DNA of 64,000 nt, taken from contig NZ_BBWH01000043.1 in assembly GCF_001463705.1 (NCBI RefSeq), forward strand, positions 1 through 64,000, read 5' to 3'. Positions 14,092-41,679 of the stretch are shown here, piece by piece (positions within the stretch are counted from its first letter, which is position 1; each line of letters opens with the position of its first letter). The notes under the pieces were generated by a model, which saw nothing but the letters and a program-made list of their open reading frames with translations, had not been told where the DNA came from and ran no database searches. Position numbers and translations under genes: made by a program. This stretch comes from Aureimonas sp. AU12 (GTDB lineage: Bacteria > Pseudomonadota > Alphaproteobacteria > Rhizobiales > Rhizobiaceae).

Positions 14092-14129
14092 AACAAAACT
14101 GGTGGAGGCTTCTGTTGCCAGGCGCCTCC
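14092..14129 (-). terminator. Intrinsic terminator after ssrA
   Basis: Read on the minus strand, a GGAGGC...GCCTCC stem (arms 14129-14124 and 14109-14104) is followed by ACCAGTTTTGTT. It lies just beyond the tag-encoding part of the tmRNA and before sspB, so the two genes are probably separate transcripts unless readthrough occurs. Confidence 0.6.
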
Positions 14130-14446
14130 GGGCCCCGCCTAAGAGTGCGAACCCTCAGGGCTTGATTCGAAGTTATCGCACCGCTTACGCGGCGAGACGG
14201 ACTTCCGCATAGTTGTCGTTTGCAACTACTTTAACAGCCCGATGACGGTGGTACCATGCCGAGCAAAAGTCCGATCTTTACGCCCTCGTCGATCCTATTT
14301 CGCCCCCGCCTCAACCCATCGACGGTGGGCTCAGGTGGAGGCGCCGGGTACCGCCCCCGGGTCCGAAAGGTTTATTGCACCGGCAGTTTATTGCCATAGT
14401 CGAGGCGAACCCCGACATGCGGAATATAGGCACTTGGGTTCGCCGG
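14130..14446 (-). ncRNA. ssrA: Circularly permuted (two-piece) alphaproteobacterial tmRNA
   Basis: tmRNA rescues stalled ribosomes and adds a degradation tag. On the minus strand the order is permuted. First comes a hairpin with arms GGCGAACCC and GGGTTCGCC (14444-14404). The acceptor piece with the T-arm-like CCCGGGGGCGGTACCCGG follows, ending in GCGCCTCCACC. A short joining loop (near 14330) comes next, and then the coding piece begins GGGGGCGAAATAGGATCGAC. The tag frame (14223-14185) encodes [12 protein letters not shown] then TAA. Two-piece tmRNAs of this kind are known in alphaproteobacteria; the joining loop is removed by processing. The outer ends are approximate, set by the first hairpin and the terminator. 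A +strand reading of this region gives no convincing protein. Confidence 0.93.
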
Positions 14447-32061: not shown

Positions 32062-33504
32062 ATGGATACGCTCATCGCAAGAACGGAACGTCCCCTCTAC
32101 GTCGATCTCGACGGGACGCTGATCCGAAGCGACATCCTGTGGGAAAGCCTCTTCCTGTTCGCACGGGCCCATCCGCTGCAGTTCTGGCGAGTGTTCGGCT
32201 GGGCGCTGTCGGGTAAGTCCGTGCTGAAGGCGGAACTCGCCGCGCGCACCGAGATCGACGTCGCGACGCTGCCCTACCGAGAAGAGGTGGTCGCGAGCCT
32301 CCAGGCGGAGCGCGAGGCCGGACGGCACATCGTTCTCGCCACCGCTTCCAACGAACGCACGGCGCAGGCCGTCGCACGGCATCTCGGCCTCTTCGACGAC
32401 GTCATCGCAAGTGATCGCGAGACCAATCTGTCGGCCGACCGCAAGCTCGAGCGCATCCGCTCGCAGTGCTTCGGCAGGGGTTTCGACTATGTCGGCAACT
32501 CGCGCGACGACATCTGCCTCTTCGACGCCGCCGACACCGTGACGGTGGTCCAGCCCGACCGGTCCGCCCGCGCCTGGCACCGCGCCTCCGATCGCGGCTC
32601 GCGGTTGATCGCCGATCGAGGACATCTCGCCCGCAGCATCCTCAAGGCGATGCGGCCGCACCAGTGGACGAAGAACCTCCTCGTCTTCGTGCCGCTGGCG
32701 CTCAACCAGGACTTCTTCGACACCGCCCTGGTCCTCTCGGGGATCGTCGGCTTCCTGGCCTTTTCGCTCGCGGCCTCGTCGGTCTACCTCCTCAACGATC
32801 TGCTCGATCTGCCGGCCGACCGGCGCCACAAGACCAAGCGCAACCGGCCCTTCGCCAGCGGCGCGGTGCCCATCCCGCTGGGGCTAGCCCTGGCCGGCCT
32901 GCTCCTCGTCACCTCGTTCCTGCTCTCGGCCTTGCTGCCGATCGAGTTCACCGCCGTTCTTGCGGTCTACATGGTGGCGACCACGGCCTATTCGTTCGTC
33001 CTCAAGCGCATGCTTCTCATCGACGTCCTCACGCTGGCGGGGCTCTACACGCTGCGTATCATCGCGGGGGCCGCGGCGGCGCATTCGATGGAATCCTTCT
33101 GGCTGCTGGCCTTCTCGATCTTCTTCTTCCTGTCCCTGGCGTTGGTGAAGCGCTTCGTCGAGGTGGCGGATTTCGGCGAGGGCGTCACGCGCTCGTCTTC
33201 GGGGCGCGGTTATGTCGGGCTCGATCTGGAGACGATCGGGCAGGCGGGCATGGCGTCCGGCTTCGCCTCGGTCCTCGTCCTCGCGCTCTATGTCGACAGC
33301 GCCGAGGTCCGCCAGCTTTACGACCATCCCTACCTGATGTGGCCGCTCTGCCCGCTCGTCCTCTACATCGTCGTACGGATCTGGGTGCTCGCCCGGCGTA
33401 ACCAGATGAACGAGGACCCCGTCGTCTTCATCCTCAACGACTGGCGCTCGCAGATCATGATCGGCCTCGGCGGCCTCCTCTTCCTGGGGGCGGCTTATGT
33501 CTAA
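32062..33504 (+). CDS. HAD-UbiA fusion: putative polyprenyl-phosphate phosphoribosyltransferase with phosphatase domain
   Basis: The protein has 480 residues. Residues 1-190 are an HAD domain: YVDLDGTLIRSD (nucleophile), LATASNERTAQ and GNSRDDICLF. Residues 195-480 are a UbiA-type integral membrane prenyltransferase with about eight to nine segments. Its Asp-rich motifs are NDLLDLPADRRHKTKRNRPFASGAV and a second one of the form DVLTLAGLYTLRI. This matches the DPPR-synthase type (mycobacterial Rv3806c, rhizobial NoeC group), which links polyprenyl phosphate to PRPP. I infer that the HAD part could remove the 5'-phosphate, a step done by a separate enzyme in mycobacteria. It overlaps the oxidase gene by eight bases. 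Confidence 0.88.
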   Translation: MDTLIARTERPLYVDLDGTLIRSDILWESLFLFARAHPLQFWRVFGWALSGKSVLKAELAARTEIDVATLPYREEVVASLQAEREAGRHIVLATASNERTAQAVARHLGLFDDVIASDRETNLSADRKLERIRSQCFGRGFDYVGNSRDDICLFDAADTVTVVQPDRSARAWHRASDRGSRLIADRGHLARSILKAMRPHQWTKNLLVFVPLALNQDFFDTALVLSGIVGFLAFSLAASSVYLLNDLLDLPADRRHKTKRNRPFASGAVPIPLGLALAGLLLVTSFLLSALLPIEFTAVLAVYMVATTAYSFVLKRMLLIDVLTLAGLYTLRIIAGAAAAHSMESFWLLAFSIFFFLSLALVKRFVEVADFGEGVTRSSSGRGYVGLDLETIGQAGMASGFASVLVLALYVDSAEVRQLYDHPYLMWPLCPLVLYIVVRIWVLARRNQMNEDPVVFILNDWRSQIMIGLGGLLFLGAAYV

Positions 33505-34849
33505 CTCCGACGCCAGCTGGGGCCGGACGGCGCCCACCAACGTCACCCGCGCGACCCTTCGAACCGAGGCAGGCGACGGTTTTGCGGCGGTGCGCAGCCC
33601 GAACGGCCTTTTGCCGCGCGGAAATGGCCGCTCCTACGGCGACAGTGGCCTGAACGACGCCGGGCTCCTGATCGATCGGCGCGCCGGAGCCGCCATCCAT
33701 CGCTTCGATCCTCTGACCGGCCTTGTCGAGGTCGATGCCGGCGTTCTCCTGCCGGAGATCGTCCGCATTGCCGCGCCGCAGGGCTGGTTCCTGCCGGTCA
33801 CGCCAGGGACGCAGTTCGTCACGATGGGCGGCGCACTGGCCAACGACGTCCACGGCAAGAATCACCATCGCCGTGGCACACTTGGACGCGCGATCGAGAG
33901 TTTCACCCTGCATCGCTCGGACCGGGCGGAACCGCTTCGCTGCTCGCGGACGACGAACGCCGACTTCTTTGCGGCGACGATCGGCGGCCTCGGACTGACC
34001 GGTCTCGTCGGTCGGATCACGTTGCGTCTGATGCCGGTCTCGTCGCTGACGATCCGCGAGACCACGCTTCGCTTCGACCGCCTGGCCGACTATTTCGATG
34101 CCGCGGAAGAAGCCGATTCACGCCATGAGTATGCGGTCGCCTGGATCGACTCCCTTGCAAGTGGCGATGCTTTCGGCCGGGGGCATCTCATCGCCGGCGA
34201 TCATGCGCCGGACGGAGACCGGAGCGGCATTGCCCGGCCCGCGCTGGCGAGCGTCCCGTTCACGCCGCCGATCAGCCCGCTCAAGGGGCTGGCTCTTCGT
34301 GCCTTTAACGAAATGTACTTTCGCAAGGCACGAGCAGGAACGACCCGGCGCGACGTGCCGTTCGACGGTTTCTTCTACCCGCTTGATCGTATCGGCGCGT
34401 GGAACCGGCTCTACGGGCCGAGCGGGCTTCACCAGCACCAGAGCGTGGTGCCGGCCGAGGTCGCGCCGCAGGCGGTGCGGGCTCTCATGGAATGCGCCCG
34501 CTCCCATAAGCAGGGCTCGTTCCTGACGGTGCTCAAGCGCTTCGGCGCGCTGGAAAGCCCGGGTCTCCTCAGTTTTCCCAGGCCTGGCTACACGCTGACG
34601 CTCGACTTTCCCCATCGCGGCGAGCGCACGTTGCGGCTTCTCGCCGAACTCGACCGCATCACCGTGGCCGCGGGCGGGGCGGTGAACCCCTACAAGGACG
34701 CCCGGATGTCGCCCGAGACCTTCGCGGCCTCGTTCCCGAACTGGGAGCGGCTGGAGCGGCTGCGCGATCCCGCCCTCATGTCCGACTTCTGGCGCCGCAC
34801 CGCCGGGCAGCTCCGGCCGTCGAAAAGCGTGACCTCGGCGGCGGCCTGA
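33497..34849 (+). CDS. DprE1-like FAD-dependent polyprenylphosphoryl-ribose oxidase
   Basis: The protein has 450 residues of the vanillyl-alcohol-oxidase FAD fold. In mycobacteria DprE1 oxidises the 2'-OH of decaprenylphosphoryl-ribose on the way to the arabinose donor. FAD motifs are LPRGNGRSYGDSGLN, PVTPGTQFVTMGGALANDVHGKNHHRRGTLG and GGLGLTGLVGRITLRL. HGKNHH is the segment around the conserved His of DprE1. The equivalent of the active-site Lys (K418) is present in VNPYKDARM. The position corresponding to Cys387, the target of benzothiazinones, appears to be Thr (PGYTLTLDFP). That alignment is from memory. It is translationally coupled to the HAD-UbiA gene. Confidence 0.88.
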   Translation: MSNSDASWGRTAPTNVTRATLRTEAGDGFAAVRSPNGLLPRGNGRSYGDSGLNDAGLLIDRRAGAAIHRFDPLTGLVEVDAGVLLPEIVRIAAPQGWFLPVTPGTQFVTMGGALANDVHGKNHHRRGTLGRAIESFTLHRSDRAEPLRCSRTTNADFFAATIGGLGLTGLVGRITLRLMPVSSLTIRETTLRFDRLADYFDAAEEADSRHEYAVAWIDSLASGDAFGRGHLIAGDHAPDGDRSGIARPALASVPFTPPISPLKGLALRAFNEMYFRKARAGTTRRDVPFDGFFYPLDRIGAWNRLYGPSGLHQHQSVVPAEVAPQAVRALMECARSHKQGSFLTVLKRFGALESPGLLSFPRPGYTLTLDFPHRGERTLRLLAELDRITVAAGGAVNPYKDARMSPETFAASFPNWERLERLRDPALMSDFWRRTAGQLRPSKSVTSAAA

Positions 34850-34989
34850 CGACCTCGGCCGCAAGGCTTTGTTGACGCTGCGGAAGGAAAGAGCCGCGCG
34901 CCCGCCTGCAAGCCCGCCGCCTTAACTCGATGTCGGCGCGCACGCACTATCGTCGCGGGCCAGACGCACCCCTCGATACGGAGCGGCCG

Positions 34990-35424
34990 ATGAGCCGGTA
35001 CATACCCTTCATCCTCTTCACGGTGTTCACCAACGCCGCGGCGCAGATGATGCTGAAATACGGAATGATGCAGCTCGGGCCGCTGTCGTTCGCCGGGGTC
35101 AACCCGGTGGTGAAGATCCTGCAGATCGTCTTCAGCCCCTTCGTCTTCCTCGGGCTCGCGACCTTCGTGATCTCGATGGCTTCGCACCTCTTCGTGCTGT
35201 CGAAGGTCGAGTTGTCATACGCCTATCCCTTCCTCTCGCTCGCCTATGTCGCGGTGGCCGTGGCCGCGTGGGCCCTGTTCGGCGAGGAACTGAACCCCTC
35301 GCGCATCGGCGGCATCGCGCTGATCTGCCTCGGCACGTTCTTCATCGCCAAGGGCGGATCGACGATCCACGGCGAGGAGACGCCGGTCGCCGCCATCCAG
35401 ACCTCTGAAGGAGCCACCCGATGA
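34990..35424 (+). CDS. Four-helix EamA/SMR-type membrane protein, putative lipid-linked sugar flippase subunit
   Basis: The protein has 144 residues and four predicted membrane helices, with N-terminal MSRYIPFILFTVFTNAAAQMMLKYG and a C-terminal LNPSRIGGIALICLGTFFIAKGG. It resembles ArnE/ArnF and GtrA-context SMR proteins, which are proposed to flip undecaprenyl-phosphate-linked sugars. It lacks the membrane Glu14 pattern of EmrE drug exporters in the first helix. The stop overlaps the SDR start (ATGA). Its place after the DprE1-like gene supports transport of a polyprenyl-phosphate pentose across the inner membrane; this is inference. Confidence 0.8.
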   Translation: MSRYIPFILFTVFTNAAAQMMLKYGMMQLGPLSFAGVNPVVKILQIVFSPFVFLGLATFVISMASHLFVLSKVELSYAYPFLSLAYVAVAVAAWALFGEELNPSRIGGIALICLGTFFIAKGGSTIHGEETPVAAIQTSEGATR

Positions 35425-36434
35425 AGCATGTCCTCTTCGGCGGCGACGGTTTCGTCGGCCGCCATCTCGCGCAGAAGCTCGTTGCCGATGGCGAGGAGGT
35501 TGTGGTCGCCGACATCGCCCGCAGCGAATTGCCGCATTATGCGCGTGCCGCCCATATGAGCGTCGACGTGACCGACCCCGCGGCTGTGCGCCGCGTGCCG
35601 ATCGCCGCCGGCGACATGGTCTACAACCTGTCGGCCAAGATGCTCTCGCCGCTGCAGGTGCGGGCCAAGCGGCACGAGTTCTTCTTCCCGGTGAACTATC
35701 ACGGCACGGTCAACATCATCGAGGCGATGGACCGGGCGGGGGCCAAGGACCTCGTCCACTTCACCACCGACATGATCTACGGCCACACGGTCAAGACGCC
35801 GATGACGGAGGACCATCCGGTCGCGCCACTCGGCGAATACGGGCGGTCGAAGCTGAAGACCGAGGAACTCGCCGGCGATTGGCGCCGACGCGGCATGAAC
35901 ATCTCGCTTTTCCGCCCGCGGCTCATCATCGGCCCCGGCCGGCTCGGCATCCTGGAGAAGCTGTTCAAGCTGATCGACGCCAACCTGCCGGTGCCGATGA
36001 TCGGATCGGGTCGCAACCCCTACCAGTTCATCTCGGTCTTCGACTGTGCCGAGGCCGCGCGACTGGCGTGGAAGGCGGGCGTGCCGAACGAGGCCTACAA
36101 TCTCGGCTCGCTCAACCCGCCGCCGGTGCGCAAGCTCCTCGGCGACCTCGTCAAGCATGCGGGCTCGAAGTCGATCCTCGTGCCGACGCCGGGCTGGGCG
36201 GTGAAGAAGACCCTCGACCTCCTCGACGCGATGAACCGGCCGCTCATGGATCCCGAGCAGTATCTCATCGCCGACGAGGAATGCGTGCTGGATGTGTCGA
36301 AGGGCAAGCGCCAGCTCGGCTGGGTGCCGCAGTACCGCGACGAGGACATGCTGATCGCCGCCTATTCCGAATACCGGGCGAAGAAGGAAGGCCGCGCCGC
36401 GTCCTCCGCCGCCTTCGCCCAACCCGCCGAGTGA
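35421..36434 (+). CDS. Extended SDR, NAD(P)-dependent epimerase/dehydratase family
   Basis: The protein has 337 residues and a Rossmann fold with FGGDGFVGRHLAQKL (GxxGxxG form) and MTEDHPVAPLGEYGRSKLKTEEL, whose Tyr-x-x-x-Lys is catalytic. MKHVLF starts after a good GAAGGAG site. Long C-terminal part (LDVSKGKRQLGWVPQYRDEDMLIAAYSEYR) is typical of sugar-nucleotide epimerases. In the context of DprE1-like and UbiA genes it may reduce or epimerise the keto-sugar intermediate, taking the place of DprE2, which is a classical SDR and is not seen here. A nucleotide-sugar substrate is equally possible. It is in operon with the flippase candidate and the aminotransferase. Confidence 0.85.
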   Translation: MKHVLFGGDGFVGRHLAQKLVADGEEVVVADIARSELPHYARAAHMSVDVTDPAAVRRVPIAAGDMVYNLSAKMLSPLQVRAKRHEFFFPVNYHGTVNIIEAMDRAGAKDLVHFTTDMIYGHTVKTPMTEDHPVAPLGEYGRSKLKTEELAGDWRRRGMNISLFRPRLIIGPGRLGILEKLFKLIDANLPVPMIGSGRNPYQFISVFDCAEAARLAWKAGVPNEAYNLGSLNPPPVRKLLGDLVKHAGSKSILVPTPGWAVKKTLDLLDAMNRPLMDPEQYLIADEECVLDVSKGKRQLGWVPQYRDEDMLIAAYSEYRAKKEGRAASSAAFAQPAE

Positions 36435-36445
36435 GGACCGCCGAC

Positions 36446-37900
36446 ATGCTGGATCGCCCGATCACCGCCGCCCCCTCGCTCGACGCGCCGCTCCGCCAGG
36501 GGCCGCCGAAGCCGAACATGCTGACGCTCGAACAGGCCAAGGCCATGGACGTCGGCACCATGGCGGACGTGTTCAAGGAGCACATCAACCCCGGCCAGTT
36601 CCATTTCATGAAGCTGCTCGGCTTTCACAAGGTCAAGGTCGAGCGCGCCGAGGGCATGTTCTACATCGACCAGAACGGCCGCAAGATCCTCGACTTCTTC
36701 GGCGGCTTCGGCTCGCTTGCCTTCGGCCATAACCATCCGCGCATCCTGAACGCCCGCAAGCAGTTCCAGGACGAGAAGCGCCACGAGATCGCGATCGCCT
36801 TCCTGTCTCAATATGCGGCAGCGCTGGCCAAGAACGTCGCGGCCTGTTCGCCGGGCGATCTCGACATGGTGTTCCTCGGCTCGTCGGGCTCGGAAGCGAT
36901 GGAGGCCGCAATCAAGGTGGCCGAGCGTGCCTCGGGCCGCAAGAACTGCAAGATCGTGCATGCCGAAAACTCCTTCCACGGCAAGACGAAGGGCGTTCTT
37001 TCGATCACGGACTCGACGCTCTATCAGGGCGAGTTCAAGCTGGTCGAGAACACCTACAAGGTGCCTTTCGGCGATCTCGCCGCGCTGACGGCCGTGGTCC
37101 GCTCGGATCCCGATGTGGGCGTCGTCGTGCTCGAGACGATCCAGGGCGGCGGCGGCATCATCGAGGCTCCGACGGAATACTGGCAGGGCGTGCGCGCGCT
37201 GTGCGACCAGCACAAGGTGATCTGGGTCGCCGACGAGGTTCAGTGCGGCTACGGCCGGTCCGGCAAGTTCTACGCGTTCGAACACCACGGCGTGGTGCCC
37301 GACGTGACGGCGCTGGCCAAGAGCTTCGGCGGCGGCAAGGCGGCGATGGCGGCGATGGTCGCGCGGCGCGACGTCTACATGAAGGCCTACGGCACGCCGA
37401 AGACCGCGATGATCCACGCCCATGCCACGTTCGGCGGCATCGGCGAGGGCTGCGCAACCTCGATCGAGGCGCTGAACACGCTTTATGACGAGGACCTGAT
37501 CGGCAATGCCGCGGTGGTCGGCGAGTATCTGCTGGAGCGCCTGCGGACGATCCAAGAGAAGTACCCCTCGATCGTCAAGGACGTGCGCGGACGCGGCCTG
37601 ATGGTCGGGCTCGAGTTCCATGACTTCTCGAAGACGCTGCCCTTCGCGGTGCGTCCGATGGTGGCGCTGCTCGACGAAAAGCTGAAGGGCTCGCTGTCGG
37701 GTTTCGTCGGGGCGCTGCTCCTGAAGGACTATGACTGCCTCGTCGCCTTCACCGAGTACAATCGCAACGTCATTCGCCTCGAGCCGCCGCTCATCTGCTC
37801 GCACGACAACGTGGACCAGTTCTGCGACGCGCTGGACGAACTGCTCGGCCGCGGCATCGTCTCGATCGTCACCAGCTTCGTGCGCTCGCAGGTCGGCTGA
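36446..37900 (+). CDS. Class III PLP-dependent aminotransferase
   Basis: The protein has 484 residues with the class III fold: FFGGFGSLAFGHNHPRI, FLGSSGSEAMEAAIKVAERAS, NSFHGKTKGVLSITDS, WVADEVQCGYGRSGKFYAFE (PLP Asp), and the catalytic Lys in TALAKSFGGGKAAMAAMVA. An N-terminal extension (about 50 residues) and the tail after RLEPPLICS are typical of the ornithine/acetylornithine-like subgroup. The acceptor is unknown. It lies 11 bases after the SDR gene. It could aminate a keto intermediate made there, giving an amino sugar or aminated polyol, or it could act on a separate amine. It is the last gene of the operon. Confidence 0.88.
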   Translation: MLDRPITAAPSLDAPLRQGPPKPNMLTLEQAKAMDVGTMADVFKEHINPGQFHFMKLLGFHKVKVERAEGMFYIDQNGRKILDFFGGFGSLAFGHNHPRILNARKQFQDEKRHEIAIAFLSQYAAALAKNVAACSPGDLDMVFLGSSGSEAMEAAIKVAERASGRKNCKIVHAENSFHGKTKGVLSITDSTLYQGEFKLVENTYKVPFGDLAALTAVVRSDPDVGVVVLETIQGGGGIIEAPTEYWQGVRALCDQHKVIWVADEVQCGYGRSGKFYAFEHHGVVPDVTALAKSFGGGKAAMAAMVARRDVYMKAYGTPKTAMIHAHATFGGIGEGCATSIEALNTLYDEDLIGNAAVVGEYLLERLRTIQEKYPSIVKDVRGRGLMVGLEFHDFSKTLPFAVRPMVALLDEKLKGSLSGFVGALLLKDYDCLVAFTEYNRNVIRLEPPLICSHDNVDQFCDALDELLGRGIVSIVTSFVRSQVG

Positions 37901-37926
37901 GCGCTCGTCGTCCTGCGATCGTGGTT

Positions 37927-37954
37927 GAGGGCCGGGTGGCGACGCCCGGCCCTT
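37927..37954. terminator. Bidirectional terminator between convergent genes
   Basis: An AGGGCCGGG...CCCGGCCCT stem with an 8-base loop lies between the stops of the aminotransferase and the GT-C-like gene. CTTCTTC follows on the plus strand. It probably serves both directions. Confidence 0.6.
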
Positions 37955-37980
37955 CTTCATGCCGGCGCCTGCGAGCCTCC

Positions 37981-39714
37981 TCAGGAAGCGGGCTGCCGCA
38001 GCAGGCCGATCCAGCAGGGGGAAAGCCGGACCTCCCGGTGCCCGGTAAGCGCTGGCGCGTAGATTTCGCGCAGCCGGACATTGGCGGCGGTCACCGGGCA
38101 GGTCGGGTAGAGGACGAGATCGGTCGCCGCCACGGTGGCCAGCGTCTCGGCATCCGGCGGCGGTACGGCGCGGAACGGATCGGCGCCGATGGCGATGCGG
38201 CGCGGTGCCTGCCGATCCAGGAGATAGGGATACGGATTGACGAAGTTCAGGCTCATGATCGTTTGGAAGCGTTCGCCGGTTCGCGCCTCGTAGGCGAGGA
38301 TCGACGAAACCGCATCTTCCGTCGCCAAGAGCCAGGCGACCTGGAACTCGACGTCGGAATACATGAAATAGCTGGGCAACTGCCGCGCATCGGCAAAGGC
38401 CTGATAAGCCTCTGGGAAGCGCTGGTAGTTGGCGATGAGATTGCGCGCGCTCGCGACGATCTCGGGCTTTTGCGTGACGGCGCCGAGGCTCTTCAGGTGC
38501 GGGCCGGGGATCGCCACCGTCTTGGCCTCGCCGCCGATGGCGCGGATCGTGCGGTGGACGACATCAACGAGCGGCGGGAGATAGGTCGCGGCCGTCAGCG
38601 TCAGCACCGCGATCATCGGCACCGTGGCCAACCGGGGCGCGGCCACGACGATGGCGAGAAGGATCGGCCAGAGGAAAATGAAGGCTTGCCCGCCGGTGTT
38701 CTGCGTCTCGAAGAACAGCCCGGTGAAGAGGGCGGCCGCGACCCATGCCGCGTCGCGATCGAACAGTGCCGCACAGCGCCCCGGCGAAGGATGCCGGAGC
38801 AGGGCGCCGGCCGCCGAAGCAATCGAGCGTCTGTCGATCGCGACAAGGGCGACGAGGAGCAGGACGCCGGATCCGAAGATGCCGAAGTGGACCGACCCCG
38901 CCTGCAGGAAGCGCGATAGCAGCACGCCCTCGTTCATCGACACGAGAAGCAGGATGTCGCCGAGATAGGCGCGAACGAGACCGGTGCCGGCATCGAGCGC
39001 CACAAGCGCCAGCCCGAACGCGGCGAGGGAGGCCAAGGCCGTGCGCAGCGACACGCGGCCGGCGAGGAAGGCGAAGGCACACAGCATGCCGCCCGCCGCG
39101 AACCCGGTGATCTTCGACAGGAACAGCGCGATGCAGCACCAGGCGATGACGAAGAGCATCACCCTCTGCCGCCGCTCGAAAACGAGCGCGGCGGTGAGGA
39201 CGAAGAGAAGCTCGGTGGCCTGCCGGTTGTAGATCCCGTATCCGTCGACGCCCGGGAAGCTCGAATACTGCTCGACGTTCATCGGCGCGAGCTGGAAGAC
39301 GAGGAAGGGCACGAAGAGCGCGAGGGCGCGCAGCCTCGATTGGCGCTCGACGCCCGCCAGCACCGGCAGGAGGGGCGGCAGCGTGATGGCGAGGAAGGTC
39401 CACTGCACCAGCAGCAGCGGCTGCGCGCGCGGGAACAGGGTTTCGCCCGCGGCGAAGAGCCAGTAGCCGAGCGGGCCGACGGGGGCGAAGAAATCGACTG
39501 ACGGGATCTGGCCGGAGAGGACCCGCTGCGCGCCGTCCAGATAGACGACGAGATCCCAGTACATCGGCCCGACCGGAAGCTTGAGCGGCAGGCAGAGAAG
39601 CAGGATGCAGACGGCGACCACGGCAGCGGCCAGCGCGCCGGTTCCCAGGCGCTGCGTCGGCGAGAGTGGCCCTGATGCGTCGACTGCGCGTCCGCGCTGC
39701 ACGATCTCGCTCAT
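37981..39714 (-). CDS. GT-C-like polytopic membrane protein, putative polyprenyl-phosphate sugar glycosyltransferase
   Basis: The protein has 577 residues. About 11 membrane segments occupy residues 15-400, and a soluble, probably periplasmic, C-terminal domain covers roughly 410-577. After the first membrane segment a loop holds MYWDLVVYLDGAQRVLSGQ and VDFFAPVGPLGYW. This is the place where GT-C enzymes that use polyprenyl-phosphate sugars carry their acidic catalytic residues. I see no strict match to a named family. It faces the pentose operon tail to tail, so it is a good candidate for the transferase that uses the donor. The ATG at 39714 was chosen over a TTG five codons earlier; the ribosome site is poor for both. 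Confidence 0.7.
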   Translation of the reverse strand: MSEIVQRGRAVDASGPLSPTQRLGTGALAAAVVAVCILLLCLPLKLPVGPMYWDLVVYLDGAQRVLSGQIPSVDFFAPVGPLGYWLFAAGETLFPRAQPLLLVQWTFLAITLPPLLPVLAGVERQSRLRALALFVPFLVFQLAPMNVEQYSSFPGVDGYGIYNRQATELLFVLTAALVFERRQRVMLFVIAWCCIALFLSKITGFAAGGMLCAFAFLAGRVSLRTALASLAAFGLALVALDAGTGLVRAYLGDILLLVSMNEGVLLSRFLQAGSVHFGIFGSGVLLLVALVAIDRRSIASAAGALLRHPSPGRCAALFDRDAAWVAAALFTGLFFETQNTGGQAFIFLWPILLAIVVAAPRLATVPMIAVLTLTAATYLPPLVDVVHRTIRAIGGEAKTVAIPGPHLKSLGAVTQKPEIVASARNLIANYQRFPEAYQAFADARQLPSYFMYSDVEFQVAWLLATEDAVSSILAYEARTGERFQTIMSLNFVNPYPYLLDRQAPRRIAIGADPFRAVPPPDAETLATVAATDLVLYPTCPVTAANVRLREIYAPALTGHREVRLSPCWIGLLRQPAS

Positions 39715-39845: not shown

Positions 39846-40685
39846 ATGCGGATCGCCCTTGCATTGCTCGCAGCATGTCTGGCCTCGACGACGCTTCCGG
39901 TGCGGGCCCAGCCGGCTGCCGTCGCAGACCTTCCGGTCGATGTCGAACTCGTTCTCGCCGTAGACGTGTCCTGGTCGATGGACCGGGCCGAGCAGGAGAT
40001 CCAGCGCGACGGCTATATCGCGGCCCTGCGCAGCGCCGAGGTGCAGGAGGCCATCCTGCACGGGGCCTACGGGCGCGTCGCGATCTCCTATGTCGAGTGG
40101 GCGGGCGAGCTTTCGCAGTCGGTGGTGATCCCCTGGACGCTGGTGGACTCGAAGGCCGCCGCGGAGAGCTTCGCCTATCGGCTGGCCGCCGCCGAGCCCG
40201 ATCGGCTCCGCCGCACCTCGATCGCCGCCGCCATCGACTTCGTCGCGCCGATGTTCGATGGCAACGGCTTTGCCGGAGATCGCCGCGTCATCGACGTCTC
40301 CGGCGACGGGCCGAACAACCAGGGCCGGTCCGTCGCCGACGCGCGAAATGCCGCCATCGCGCGAGGCATCACCATCAACGGCCTGCCTTTGATGACGACG
40401 GGCGGCGAGGTGGGAAGCTGGGGCTCCATCGCCGACCTCGACCGGTACTATGCCGACTGCGTCATAGGCGGCCCCGGCGCCTTCATGATTCCCGTCAACG
40501 AATGGGCCCAATTCCCGGAGGCGGTGCGCCGAAAGCTCGTCCTCGAACTGGCCGGGCTCTGGCCGAAGCGCGCGCCGGTCGGCCAGCCGCCGGTCGCATT
40601 GCTTGCCGCTACGGCGACGCGAGCGGATTGCCTCGCGGGCGAGCGCATGTGGCAGCAACGGCAGGATCGCTGGGCACCGAACTGA
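39846..40685 (+). CDS. DUF1194 family secreted von Willebrand type A protein
   Basis: The protein has 279 residues. A signal peptide (residues 1-22, cleaved near VRAQP) is followed by a VWA-like domain with the metal-ion site DVSWS in LVLAVDVSWSMDRAEQEIQRDGY. GYGRVAISYVEWAG-type and VIDVSGDGPNNQGRSVADARNAA elements are DUF1194 hallmarks. The tail (LAGERMWQQRQDRW) is Arg/Gln-rich. The role is unknown; the family is common in alphaproteobacteria. It is divergent from the GT-C-like gene, and the 131 bases between hold both promoters. Confidence 0.88.
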   Translation: MRIALALLAACLASTTLPVRAQPAAVADLPVDVELVLAVDVSWSMDRAEQEIQRDGYIAALRSAEVQEAILHGAYGRVAISYVEWAGELSQSVVIPWTLVDSKAAAESFAYRLAAAEPDRLRRTSIAAAIDFVAPMFDGNGFAGDRRVIDVSGDGPNNQGRSVADARNAAIARGITINGLPLMTTGGEVGSWGSIADLDRYYADCVIGGPGAFMIPVNEWAQFPEAVRRKLVLELAGLWPKRAPVGQPPVALLAATATRADCLAGERMWQQRQDRWAPN

Positions 40686-40722
40686 ACGGGCCAGCGCCGC
40701 GACGGTCCATCGAACCTGCGCT

Positions 40723-41679
40723 TCAACTCGACTTGCGCGAACCGGGGTCGAGTTCGCGCCGCTTCCACATCGCGCTTTGCTCGAACAGCAGGACGAAGAC
40801 GATCGCCACGGCGAAGGGCAGCAGAAGATAGAGGATGCGGAAGACGAGGAGAGCGGCGAGGACGTCCGTCTCCGGCACATCCGACAGGCCCGCGAGAAAC
40901 GTCACCTCGAGGACGCCGAGCCCTCCCGGTGCATGGGAGACGAGCGCCAGCGAGAAGGACACCACGAAGATCGCGAGCACCACGACGAAGCCGGGATTGC
41001 TGGCCTCCGGCAGCGCGAAATAGATGATTCCGGCGGCCGCGATGATTTCCAGCGGCGCCGCGATCAGCTGCCGCACCACGACGTCGCGGCGCGGATACTG
41101 CAGGAGGAAGCTGCCGATCTTCATCGGCTTCAGGCCCTTGAGGCTTCCGAAGACGTAGAGCGCGATCCCCGCCAGAATGACGAGCGAGATCACCACGGGA
41201 ATGATGGGATCGATGTCGAAATAGCGTTGCACGGTCGTCGGGTGCAGAAGCAGCGTCACCGCGCTCACAAGGAGCACGCCGAGCCCGAACGTGAACGAGC
41301 AGAAGGCGATGAGAAGCGCGATCTCCGGCCCCGTCAGCCCCCGCGAGCTGTAGGCCCGGTAGCGCACGACCGCGCCGGAAAACACCGAGGCGCCGATATT
41401 GTGCGAGAGGGCGTAGGTGGCGAAGGACGTGGCGGCGACGAACGGAAACGACACGTGACGCCCGACATGGCGCAGGGCGAGACGATCGTAGTAGGCCAGC
41501 ATGACGTAGGCGAGGATCGCGGATGCGATCGAGCCCGTCCATTGCGGCGCGCTGATCGCCGTAAAGCTCGCCCATATGTCGTCCAGCGACAGCCCCTGGA
41601 CCTCCCGATATAGCAGCCAGCAGGAGAAGATCACGGCCACGAGACCGATCGCCGGCCAGACGGCGTCTTTCAGCTTCAT
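40723..41679 (-). CDS. UPF0104/LPG synthase TM-domain membrane protein
   Basis: The protein has 318 residues and about eight membrane segments. It has the pattern of the flippase or lysyl-phosphatidylglycerol synthase transmembrane domain, with ALSHNIGASVFSGAVVRYRAYSSRGLTGPEIA and the C-terminal HAPGGLGVLEVTFLAGL. It lacks the cytosolic aminoacyltransferase domain of MprF, so it cannot by itself make lysyl-PG. YbhN-type proteins of this group have been proposed to move lipids between membranes. It converges with the DUF1194 gene, with 37 bases between stops. Confidence 0.88.
   Translation of the reverse strand: MKLKDAVWPAIGLVAVIFSCWLLYREVQGLSLDDIWASFTAISAPQWTGSIASAILAYVMLAYYDRLALRHVGRHVSFPFVAATSFATYALSHNIGASVFSGAVVRYRAYSSRGLTGPEIALLIAFCSFTFGLGVLLVSAVTLLLHPTTVQRYFDIDPIIPVVISLVILAGIALYVFGSLKGLKPMKIGSFLLQYPRRDVVVRQLIAAPLEIIAAAGIIYFALPEASNPGFVVVLAIFVVSFSLALVSHAPGGLGVLEVTFLAGLSDVPETDVLAALLVFRILYLLLPFAVAIVFVLLFEQSAMWKRRELDPGSRKSS

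Follow-up and report, generated by a model that had tools for sequence, protein, structure and literature searches.

Which product is made by the gene cassette at positions 32062 to 37900 is the question raised by the stretch of DNA analyzed here, the first 64,000 nucleotides of contig NZ_BBWH01000043.1 of Aureimonas sp. AU12 (the window). On the forward strand, the cassette comprises a gene for a HAD phosphatase domain fused to a UbiA-type polyprenyl-phosphate phosphoribosyltransferase (32062..33504, 480 amino acids), followed by genes for a DprE1-like flavin adenine dinucleotide (FAD) oxidase (33497..34849, 450 amino acids), a small SMR/EamA-type membrane protein as candidate flippase (34990..35424), an extended short-chain dehydrogenase/reductase (SDR; 35421..36434, 337 amino acids) and a class III pyridoxal phosphate-dependent aminotransferase, called AT3 in the following (36446..37900, 484 amino acids from the ATG at 36446). 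A convergent gene for a polytopic membrane protein faces the cassette. Judged from sequence and gene context, it is on balance probable that the cassette makes a polyprenyl-phosphate-linked aminopentofuranose, which would be exported and then attached to a glycan or lipid of the cell surface. The original prediction, made from the DNA alone, had suggested that the route could lead to a lipid-linked pentose or aminopentose, and the comparisons described below support such a product as the likely one.

Conservation of the cassette

Gene content, linkage and co-occurrence were computed for a first set of 61 genomes, consisting of the genome of the window and of 20 genomes from its genus, 16 from its family and 24 from its order. 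In 20 of these genomes, the window included, HAD-UbiA, DprE1, SMR, SDR and AT3 follow one another in identical order. Searches for the SDR (E 1e-40) and for the polytopic gene (E 1e-5) retrieved the same 20 genomes, and the SMR gene, read at the loci and not genome-wide, was present at all 20 loci. The identities across these genomes amount to at least 73% for AT3, 56% for DprE1 and 50% for UbiA-HAD. AT3 is the most conserved member: of the 15 further AT3 carriers in the genus, 13 show 90-94% identity. Weaker class III aminotransferases with 34-38% identity occur in six genomes (G002, G003, G005, G007, G029 and G058), UbiA-HAD homologues with 37-44% in eight further genomes, and DprE1 homologues with 41-46% in G004, G046 and G055, the remaining DprE1 hits being short matches with an E-value of 4e-13 or weaker. 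Across the family, AT3 (E 1e-120) was found in 126 of 247 genomes and in 62 of 109 genera, always with at least 62% identity. Compared to the 34-38% of the other class III enzymes, AT3 looks by sequence like a discrete family.

Furthermore, species genomes were scanned with an AT3 alignment, and the best 80 of 435 relatives were taken as named loci, 11 of which (L053-L063) repeat genomes of the first set. The closest named matches to the AT3 of the window come from Aureimonas species. The carriers, among them many bacteria of soil, sea and plants, include Aureimonas, Aurantimonas, Antarcticirhabdus, Consotaella, Fulvimarina, Mangrovicella and Jiella as well as Roseibium/Labrenzia, many Mesorhizobium, Tianweitania, Aquibium and several metagenome-assembled genomes or uncultured isolates. 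Under the score limits applied to these loci, one gene order was observed throughout, with SMR and SDR in 80 of 80 loci, UbiA-HAD in 79 and DprE1 in 74; in the sole locus lacking UbiA-HAD (L121), the contig ends before this gene. Since the order is conserved in both sets and the genes co-occur family-wide, a chance neighborhood was ruled out. Homologues lying always apart, which the original prediction had named as evidence that would speak against it, are the opposite of what was seen, and also in other families the genes mostly remain close.

In one Roseibium genome (L093), the cassette is enclosed by genes for a glycosyltransferase of group 1, a flippase resembling Wzx, a GumK-like transferase and a cellulase; these surroundings point to a surface polysaccharide in that case.

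Coupling of AT3 to DprE1

Within the family, DprE1 (E 1e-50) was found in 135 of 247 genomes, comprising 126 of 126 AT3-positive and 9 of 121 AT3-negative genomes (Fisher 3e-60; like the Fisher value given below for the polytopic gene, it treats related genomes as independent and overstates their independence). Because of this co-occurrence and the conserved proximity, AT3 and DprE1 probably serve one pathway. The original assumption that a UbiA-type phosphoribosyltransferase and a DprE1-type oxidase belong to a single functional unit agrees with both this count and the gene order in the 20 cassette genomes.

Each of the six genomes whose named locus (L064, L065, L072, L076, L081 and L083) is without DprE1 has one DprE1 elsewhere, with 40-48% identity, while three of three comparison genomes showed one DprE1 match each, the cassette copy. 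Two of the replacement DprE1s, those of G445 and G446, are near-identical and have UbiA-like and DprE2-like genes in their vicinity. No such pair of genes was found around the remaining four; a single DprE2 match, of 39 bits, was obtained in L154, and the L151 stretch stops shortly after DprE1.

A tree was calculated from 46 DprE1 sequences, 35 of them AT3-linked and selected from the available loci. One side of a branch with a support of 100/99 holds 34 of the 35 AT3-linked sequences and one orphan from Sinorhizobium meliloti (L135). The opposite side holds six rows located beside DprE2, four rows without it and the AT3-linked copy of G265, a genome of another order; all six replacements fall among the sequences of this side. 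AT3 occurs with DprE1s of both sides of the tree. Since the six replacements fall on the other side, a DprE1 activity and not one particular lineage seems to be required. In the orphan, the lysine that corresponds to K418 of the Mycobacterium tuberculosis enzyme is lost. As a side observation, the record carrying this orphan (CP090106.1, 3.7 Mb) is labeled pSymB; it carries eno, kdsA, parE and CTP synthase and looks like a chromosome.

All 35 AT3-linked DprE1s retain a lysine at the position of K418. The surrounding motif is N-P-Y-K in 33 of these rows and Y-x-A-K in L149, L181 and the six rows beside DprE2; at the position of C387, the same 33 rows show T, and L149, L181 and the six rows show A. 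QHQ was observed in 31 of the 35 rows, and QYQ or QFQ in L149, L180, L181 and L186, as in the six rows beside DprE2. The QHQ, TLTLDF and NPYK motifs lie at or beside the positions aligned with Q334-Q336, C387 and Y415-K418 of the M. tuberculosis enzyme. These differences suggest that the DprE1 pocket may have changed in the AT3 lineage, which would fit a new hand-over partner. In L149 and L181, however, AT3 is combined with the old-form motifs.

Search for a classical DprE2

In G004, G046 and G055, UbiA-HAD and DprE1 are accompanied by a classical short SDR (DprE2) and, assigned by eye, another extended SDR and an FAD protein. The same classical cluster, extended by a GtrA-family gene, is located on a plasmid of Rhizobium tumorigenes. 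AT3 was not found in these three genomes in the search of the 61, and the annotation of the R. tumorigenes stretch lists none either. Conversely, with the DprE2 of G004 as query (E 1e-15), hits for a classical-type DprE2 were confined to 3 of the 61 genomes, namely G004, G046 and G055, and none came from the 20 cassette genomes; a strongly diverged DprE2 elsewhere in the cassette genomes could escape this search. Since DprE2 was looked for and not found, the cassette was kept apart from the DprE1/DprE2 arabinose pathway. The original prediction had noted an extended SDR, together with an aminotransferase, in the place expected for a classical DprE2, and this is supported.

Predicted pathway

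Every reaction, the product and the acceptor named in this section are predictions. Very probably, as the strong homology suggests, UbiA transfers phosphoribose from phosphoribosyl pyrophosphate (PRPP) to polyprenyl phosphate. The fused protein matched Pfam HAD with 46.6 bits, Pfam UbiA with 72 bits and NCBIfam PRK08238 with 616 bits (cut-off 351), and the structure of the UbiA-type phosphoribosyltransferase of M. tuberculosis, the decaprenylphosphoryl-5-phosphoribose (DPPR) synthase, with an E-value of 5e-30 in the PDB. The Asp-rich motif N-D-x-x-D-x-x-x-D-R-x-H is unchanged in 44 of 44 rows. The 5-phosphate would then, with good probability, be taken off by the HAD domain.

It is likely that the DprE1-like oxidase converts the resulting polyprenyl-phosphate-ribofuranose to the 2-ketone. 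This protein contains FAD_binding_4 (Pfam) and matched the structure of M. tuberculosis DprE1 (E 7e-68); its score against the NCBIfam DprE1 equivalog model was 316 bits, below the cut-off of 500 bits. It belongs to the AT3-linked clade of the tree and carries the QHQ, TLTLDF and NPYK motifs as well as the lysine at the position of K418.

In the following step, AT3 would, more probably than not, aminate the pentose, in place of the reduction of the ketone to arabinose by DprE2. The amination is a prediction well supported by context. Most simply the amine would be placed at C2, leading to 2-amino-2-deoxy-arabino- or ribofuranose, for which we see a little less than an even chance. AT3 matched Aminotran_3 with 279 bits, its nearest structures are PigE and putrescine aminotransferase, and K292 is invariant. 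A role as a hopanoid aminotransferase (HpnO-like), weighed on general grounds and not against an HpnO sequence, is disfavored by the tie to DprE1.

More tentatively, the SDR may alter a second carbon atom, for example as an epimerase; its gene can be absent from the locus. The protein matched Pfam Epimerase, Y140-x-x-x-K144 and T115-T-D are unchanged in 20 rows, and the nearest structures are of the GalE type, a likeness that fits an epimerase and an oxidoreductase equally. Since the SDR resembles GalE and AT3 the PigE/putrescine type at a distance, neither position nor substrate can be deduced from similarity.

Finally, the donor would rather probably be flipped by the SMR protein, and its transfer outside the membrane by the polytopic enzyme seems slightly favored. 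The SMR protein matched EamA with 31.3 bits and Multi_Drug_Res below the cut-off (Pfam); in NCBIfam, ArnF (54 bits, cut-off 99) and ArnE (40 bits, cut-off 92) both remained below their cut-offs. Altogether, the domain identities assigned originally to the five proteins agree with the Pfam scan.

Loci outside the family and alternative explanations

AT3 (E 1e-110) was found in 21 of 397 genomes of the order, 15 of these belonging to other families, and at E 1e-100 in 2 of 385 genomes of the class, namely the genome of the window and G265. The 15 loci and three family loci chosen for their divergence give 18 other loci, all found via AT3; SMR was present in 17, and SDR, DprE1 and UbiA in 15 each. 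The arrangement differs among L179, L180, L182, L186, L188 and L189, in which the genes are reshuffled and mostly still close, and UbiA lacks the HAD domain in L180 and L186, as it does in L149. The shortest cassette, L181, consists of UbiA-HAD, DprE1 and AT3 alone, with DprE1 directly before AT3. In G265, the order is SMR, SDR, UbiA without HAD, DprE1 and AT3, and the end of DprE1 overlaps the start of AT3 by 4 bases.

The smallest sets found together are UbiA-DprE1-AT3 and SMR-SDR-AT3. The former favors the amination of the DprE1 ketone, and it was weighed above the latter because DprE1 is present in all 126 AT3-positive genomes of the family.

Several observations weigh against amination of the DprE1 ketone within a widely kept pathway, the overstated independence in the Fisher values among them. 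The cassette is absent from 5 of 21 members of the genus, and 121 of 247 family genomes have no AT3 cassette. At the level of the locus, SDR is missing in 3 of 18 cases (L181, L187 and L190). In another 3 of 18 (L183, L191 and L192), SMR, SDR and AT3 occur without UbiA or DprE1 nearby; for L191 (G531) and L192 (G518), DprE1 was found on another contig, and L183 (G920) was read at the locus. SMR-SDR-AT3 is thus able to stand as a module of its own, which is compatible with SDR and AT3 working as a pair. The replacement DprE1s of G445 and G446 may have a separate task, and the place of DprE2 could be taken, unnoticed, by a diverged or unrelated enzyme with reductase activity. Class III aminotransferases of the PigE/putrescine type act on terminal aldehydes or amines, a chemistry that would fit C5 better than a ring ketone. 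The polytopic gene is missing from 47 of the 126 AT3-positive genomes, and the assignment of its product to GT-C by sequence, treated below, found no support.

Part of these observations can be explained by an amination at C5 or C3, in which the SDR oxidizes the polyprenyl-phosphate-pentose at that position, AT3 aminates it, and DprE1 acts on C2 together with an unrecognized reductase. Besides the cohesion of SMR-SDR-AT3 and the kinship of AT3 to the PigE/putrescine types, the gene order speaks for this pairing, since the SDR immediately precedes AT3 in all 20 cassette genomes of the first set and at all 80 named loci. On the other hand, AT3 stays with DprE1 at the three loci from which SDR is missing, DprE1 directly precedes AT3 in G265 and L181, and no AT3-positive genome of the family lacks DprE1. 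This explanation is considered unlikely.

Less probable still is a plain pentose pathway, in which the SDR would replace DprE2, or epimerize, to give polyprenyl-phosphate-arabinofuranose or -xylofuranose, with AT3 acting elsewhere, for example in making an amine attached later. UbiA, DprE1 and a flippase are what an arabinose donor needs apart from the reductase. Moreover, according to the genetic evidence in PMC11127046, one Citrobacter SDR decides between xylose and ribose on a like donor. Against this explanation, AT3 is the most conserved member of the cassette, and it is the SDR that is missing in 3 of 18 loci, a count that leans to AT3 since these loci were found via AT3. A historical linkage of UbiA-DprE1 and SMR-SDR-AT3 as two side-by-side systems with different products, which the divergent, convergent or separated halves in other loci might suggest, is very improbable, since AT3 accompanies DprE1 in all 126 family genomes, non-adjacent cases included, and proximity is kept despite reshuffling in several families and G265.

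The facing polytopic protein

In the proposed pathway, the last step would fall to a transferase, for which the polytopic protein encoded at 37981..39714 on the reverse strand is the candidate; its open reading frame extends to 39729, with an internal ATG at 39714. The original prediction had labeled this protein GT-C-like. No Pfam or NCBIfam family and no PDB sequence match was found for it, and scanning 20 homologues with Pfam brought no relevant hit. When it was compared by profile with four polytopic cassette neighbors in other families, the probabilities stayed below 1%, as they did for the MprF-like protein of the window, used as a control. A GT-C assignment by sequence thus lacks family, structure-sequence and profile support. 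Next to the cassette in L149, L179, L181 and L190, five polytopic proteins are encoded; the cut-off of PMT_2 (Pfam) is reached by two of them, one shows a GT-C match below the cut-off and two show nothing.

The label is supported from other sides. The polytopic gene (E 1e-30) was found in 83 of 247 family genomes, in 79 of 126 AT3-positive compared to 4 of 121 AT3-negative ones (Fisher 6e-26), and in 51 of the 79 genomes with both it lies at most 6 kb from AT3. Of the 20 cassette genomes in the first set, 17 have this gene next to the cassette; in G023, G029 and G033 it lies at a distance of about 300 kb. The predicted model (pLDDT 86, pTM 0.88) comprises about 18 helices before residue 385 and a mixed helix-strand C-terminal end, while a plain hydropathy scan showed 8 strong membrane segments. 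The invariant D38 and D44 are located in the helix after the first helix, and this overall plan resembles that of GT-C enzymes. Co-occurrence and predicted model speak for the GT-C label.

Two matches of the polytopic family each were observed in G033, G552, G627, G483 and G575; two copies per genome may correspond to two acceptors. In L181, two candidates for GT-C-like transferases lie on the flanks of the cassette, together with two proteins of 335 and 353 amino acids that resemble each other. At L052:6599-7990 (G003:C18), a second class III aminotransferase with about 37% identity to AT3 lies directly before an open reading frame of 536 amino acids that resembles a polytopic transferase by eye, possibly another aminotransferase-transferase pair.

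Comparison with known systems

By analogy, the cassette would work like the DprE1 system and the three-component pentofuranose systems. For the latter, the main text of PMC11127046 describes a Citrobacter HAD-UbiA fusion that makes polyprenyl-phosphate-ribofuranose and a GT-C enzyme that adds the sugar outside; for arabinose systems, it describes DprE1/E2 homologues. As in the systems of Citrobacter youngae O1/O2 presented there, the cassette would combine a HAD (PRP)-UbiA PPPRS, an origin in PRPP and a polyprenyl-phosphate-pentofuranose donor with a flippase, a polytopic transferase and a pentose-changing SDR; judged by its domains, the HAD-UbiA protein appears to contain both the PPPRS and the HAD-family PRP domain. 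Because PRK08238 fits and the Citrobacter fusion precedes it, the HAD-UbiA fusion, listed as a novelty by the original prediction, is not new. In contrast to the three-component systems as far as they are described in that text, a DprE1-type oxidase and an aminotransferase are usual members of the cassette, and the word aminotransferase does not occur in the main text (PMC11127046). The flippase is of the SMR/EamA type compared to MATE in the prototype, and the transferase of the three-component system is a GT-C enzyme (GT136), whereas the polytopic protein of the cassette has a confident polytopic model without family match.

With the mycobacterial decaprenyl-phosphate-arabinose pathway (Rv3806c, Rv3807c, DprE1, DprE2 and Rv3789), the cassette shares homologues of the UbiA-type DPPR synthase and of DprE1 and an SMR-type candidate flippase. 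Unlike this pathway, an aminotransferase was found instead of DprE2, and a HAD domain takes the place of the unrelated mycobacterial phosphatase. UbiA and DprE1 homologues are also shared with the alphaproteobacterial UbiA-DprE1-DprE2-SDR-FAD clusters and with the rhizobial noeCNHOP (noeCHOP) operon for Nod-factor arabinosylation (PMC5080398). The former differ from the cassette in that they hold DprE2, no aminotransferase gene was seen in them, and their DprE1s fall on the other side of the tree. If the proposed pathway is right, the cassette would resemble the Arn system for 4-amino-4-deoxy-L-arabinose (L-Ara4N) in its lipid-linked aminopentose, ArnE/ArnF-like flippase and GT-C-like transferase; it differs in starting from PRPP and not from UDP-glucuronate, in its other enzymes and in the ArnE/ArnF matches below cut-off. 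ArnA, ArnB and ArnC are not among the cassette genes, the search being confined to these.

No description of the cassette, the amination branch or the product was found in the titles and abstracts of the open-access papers retrieved. The lipid A backbone of M. loti is diaminoglucose. No weight was given to the mention, in PMC4103559, of an amino sugar not further identified in this lipid A.

If the proposal is true, an amine-bearing pentose joins the lipid-linked donors, the DprE1 reaction can be redirected, and an unrecognized envelope sugar is to be expected that could be found by glycan analysis of harmless carriers that are easy to grow. About half of the family genomes examined carry AT3, including many Mesorhizobium. 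In its widest form, which we put forward tentatively and hold to be somewhat less probable than not, the proposal describes a widespread alphaproteobacterial pathway in which a DprE1-type oxidase, originally the first half of an epimerase, came to supply the ketone to a transaminase, leading to the first lipid-linked 2-amino-2-deoxy-pentofuranose donor and to an aminopentose in an envelope glycan of Mesorhizobium, Aureimonas, Roseibium and related bacteria.

Gene boundaries and neighboring genes

The coordinates confirm the five same-strand genes and the convergent polytopic gene of the original prediction, together with an 8-base overlap of HAD-UbiA and DprE1, a 4-base overlap of SMR and SDR and an 11-base gap between SDR and AT3. 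A spacing of about 140 bases between DprE1 and SMR, not listed there, follows when the conserved ATG near 34990 is taken as the start of SMR. This start was picked from the relatives, many of whose alignments begin at residue 21 of the longer open reading frame. A scan for promoters and terminators gave no signal exceeding that of shuffled sequences.

Adjoining the cassette, positions 39849-41679 of the window hold a DUF1194 gene and a gene with an MprF-like flippase domain, which are neighbors in many loci of the genus. DUF1194 was found inside the flanks of 57 of 82 loci, many of them from Mesorhizobium, and this neighborhood with the cassette probably reflects shared ancestry. At 14094-14428 of the window, ARAGORN predicts a tmRNA gene of the permuted form, which is usual in alphaproteobacteria.

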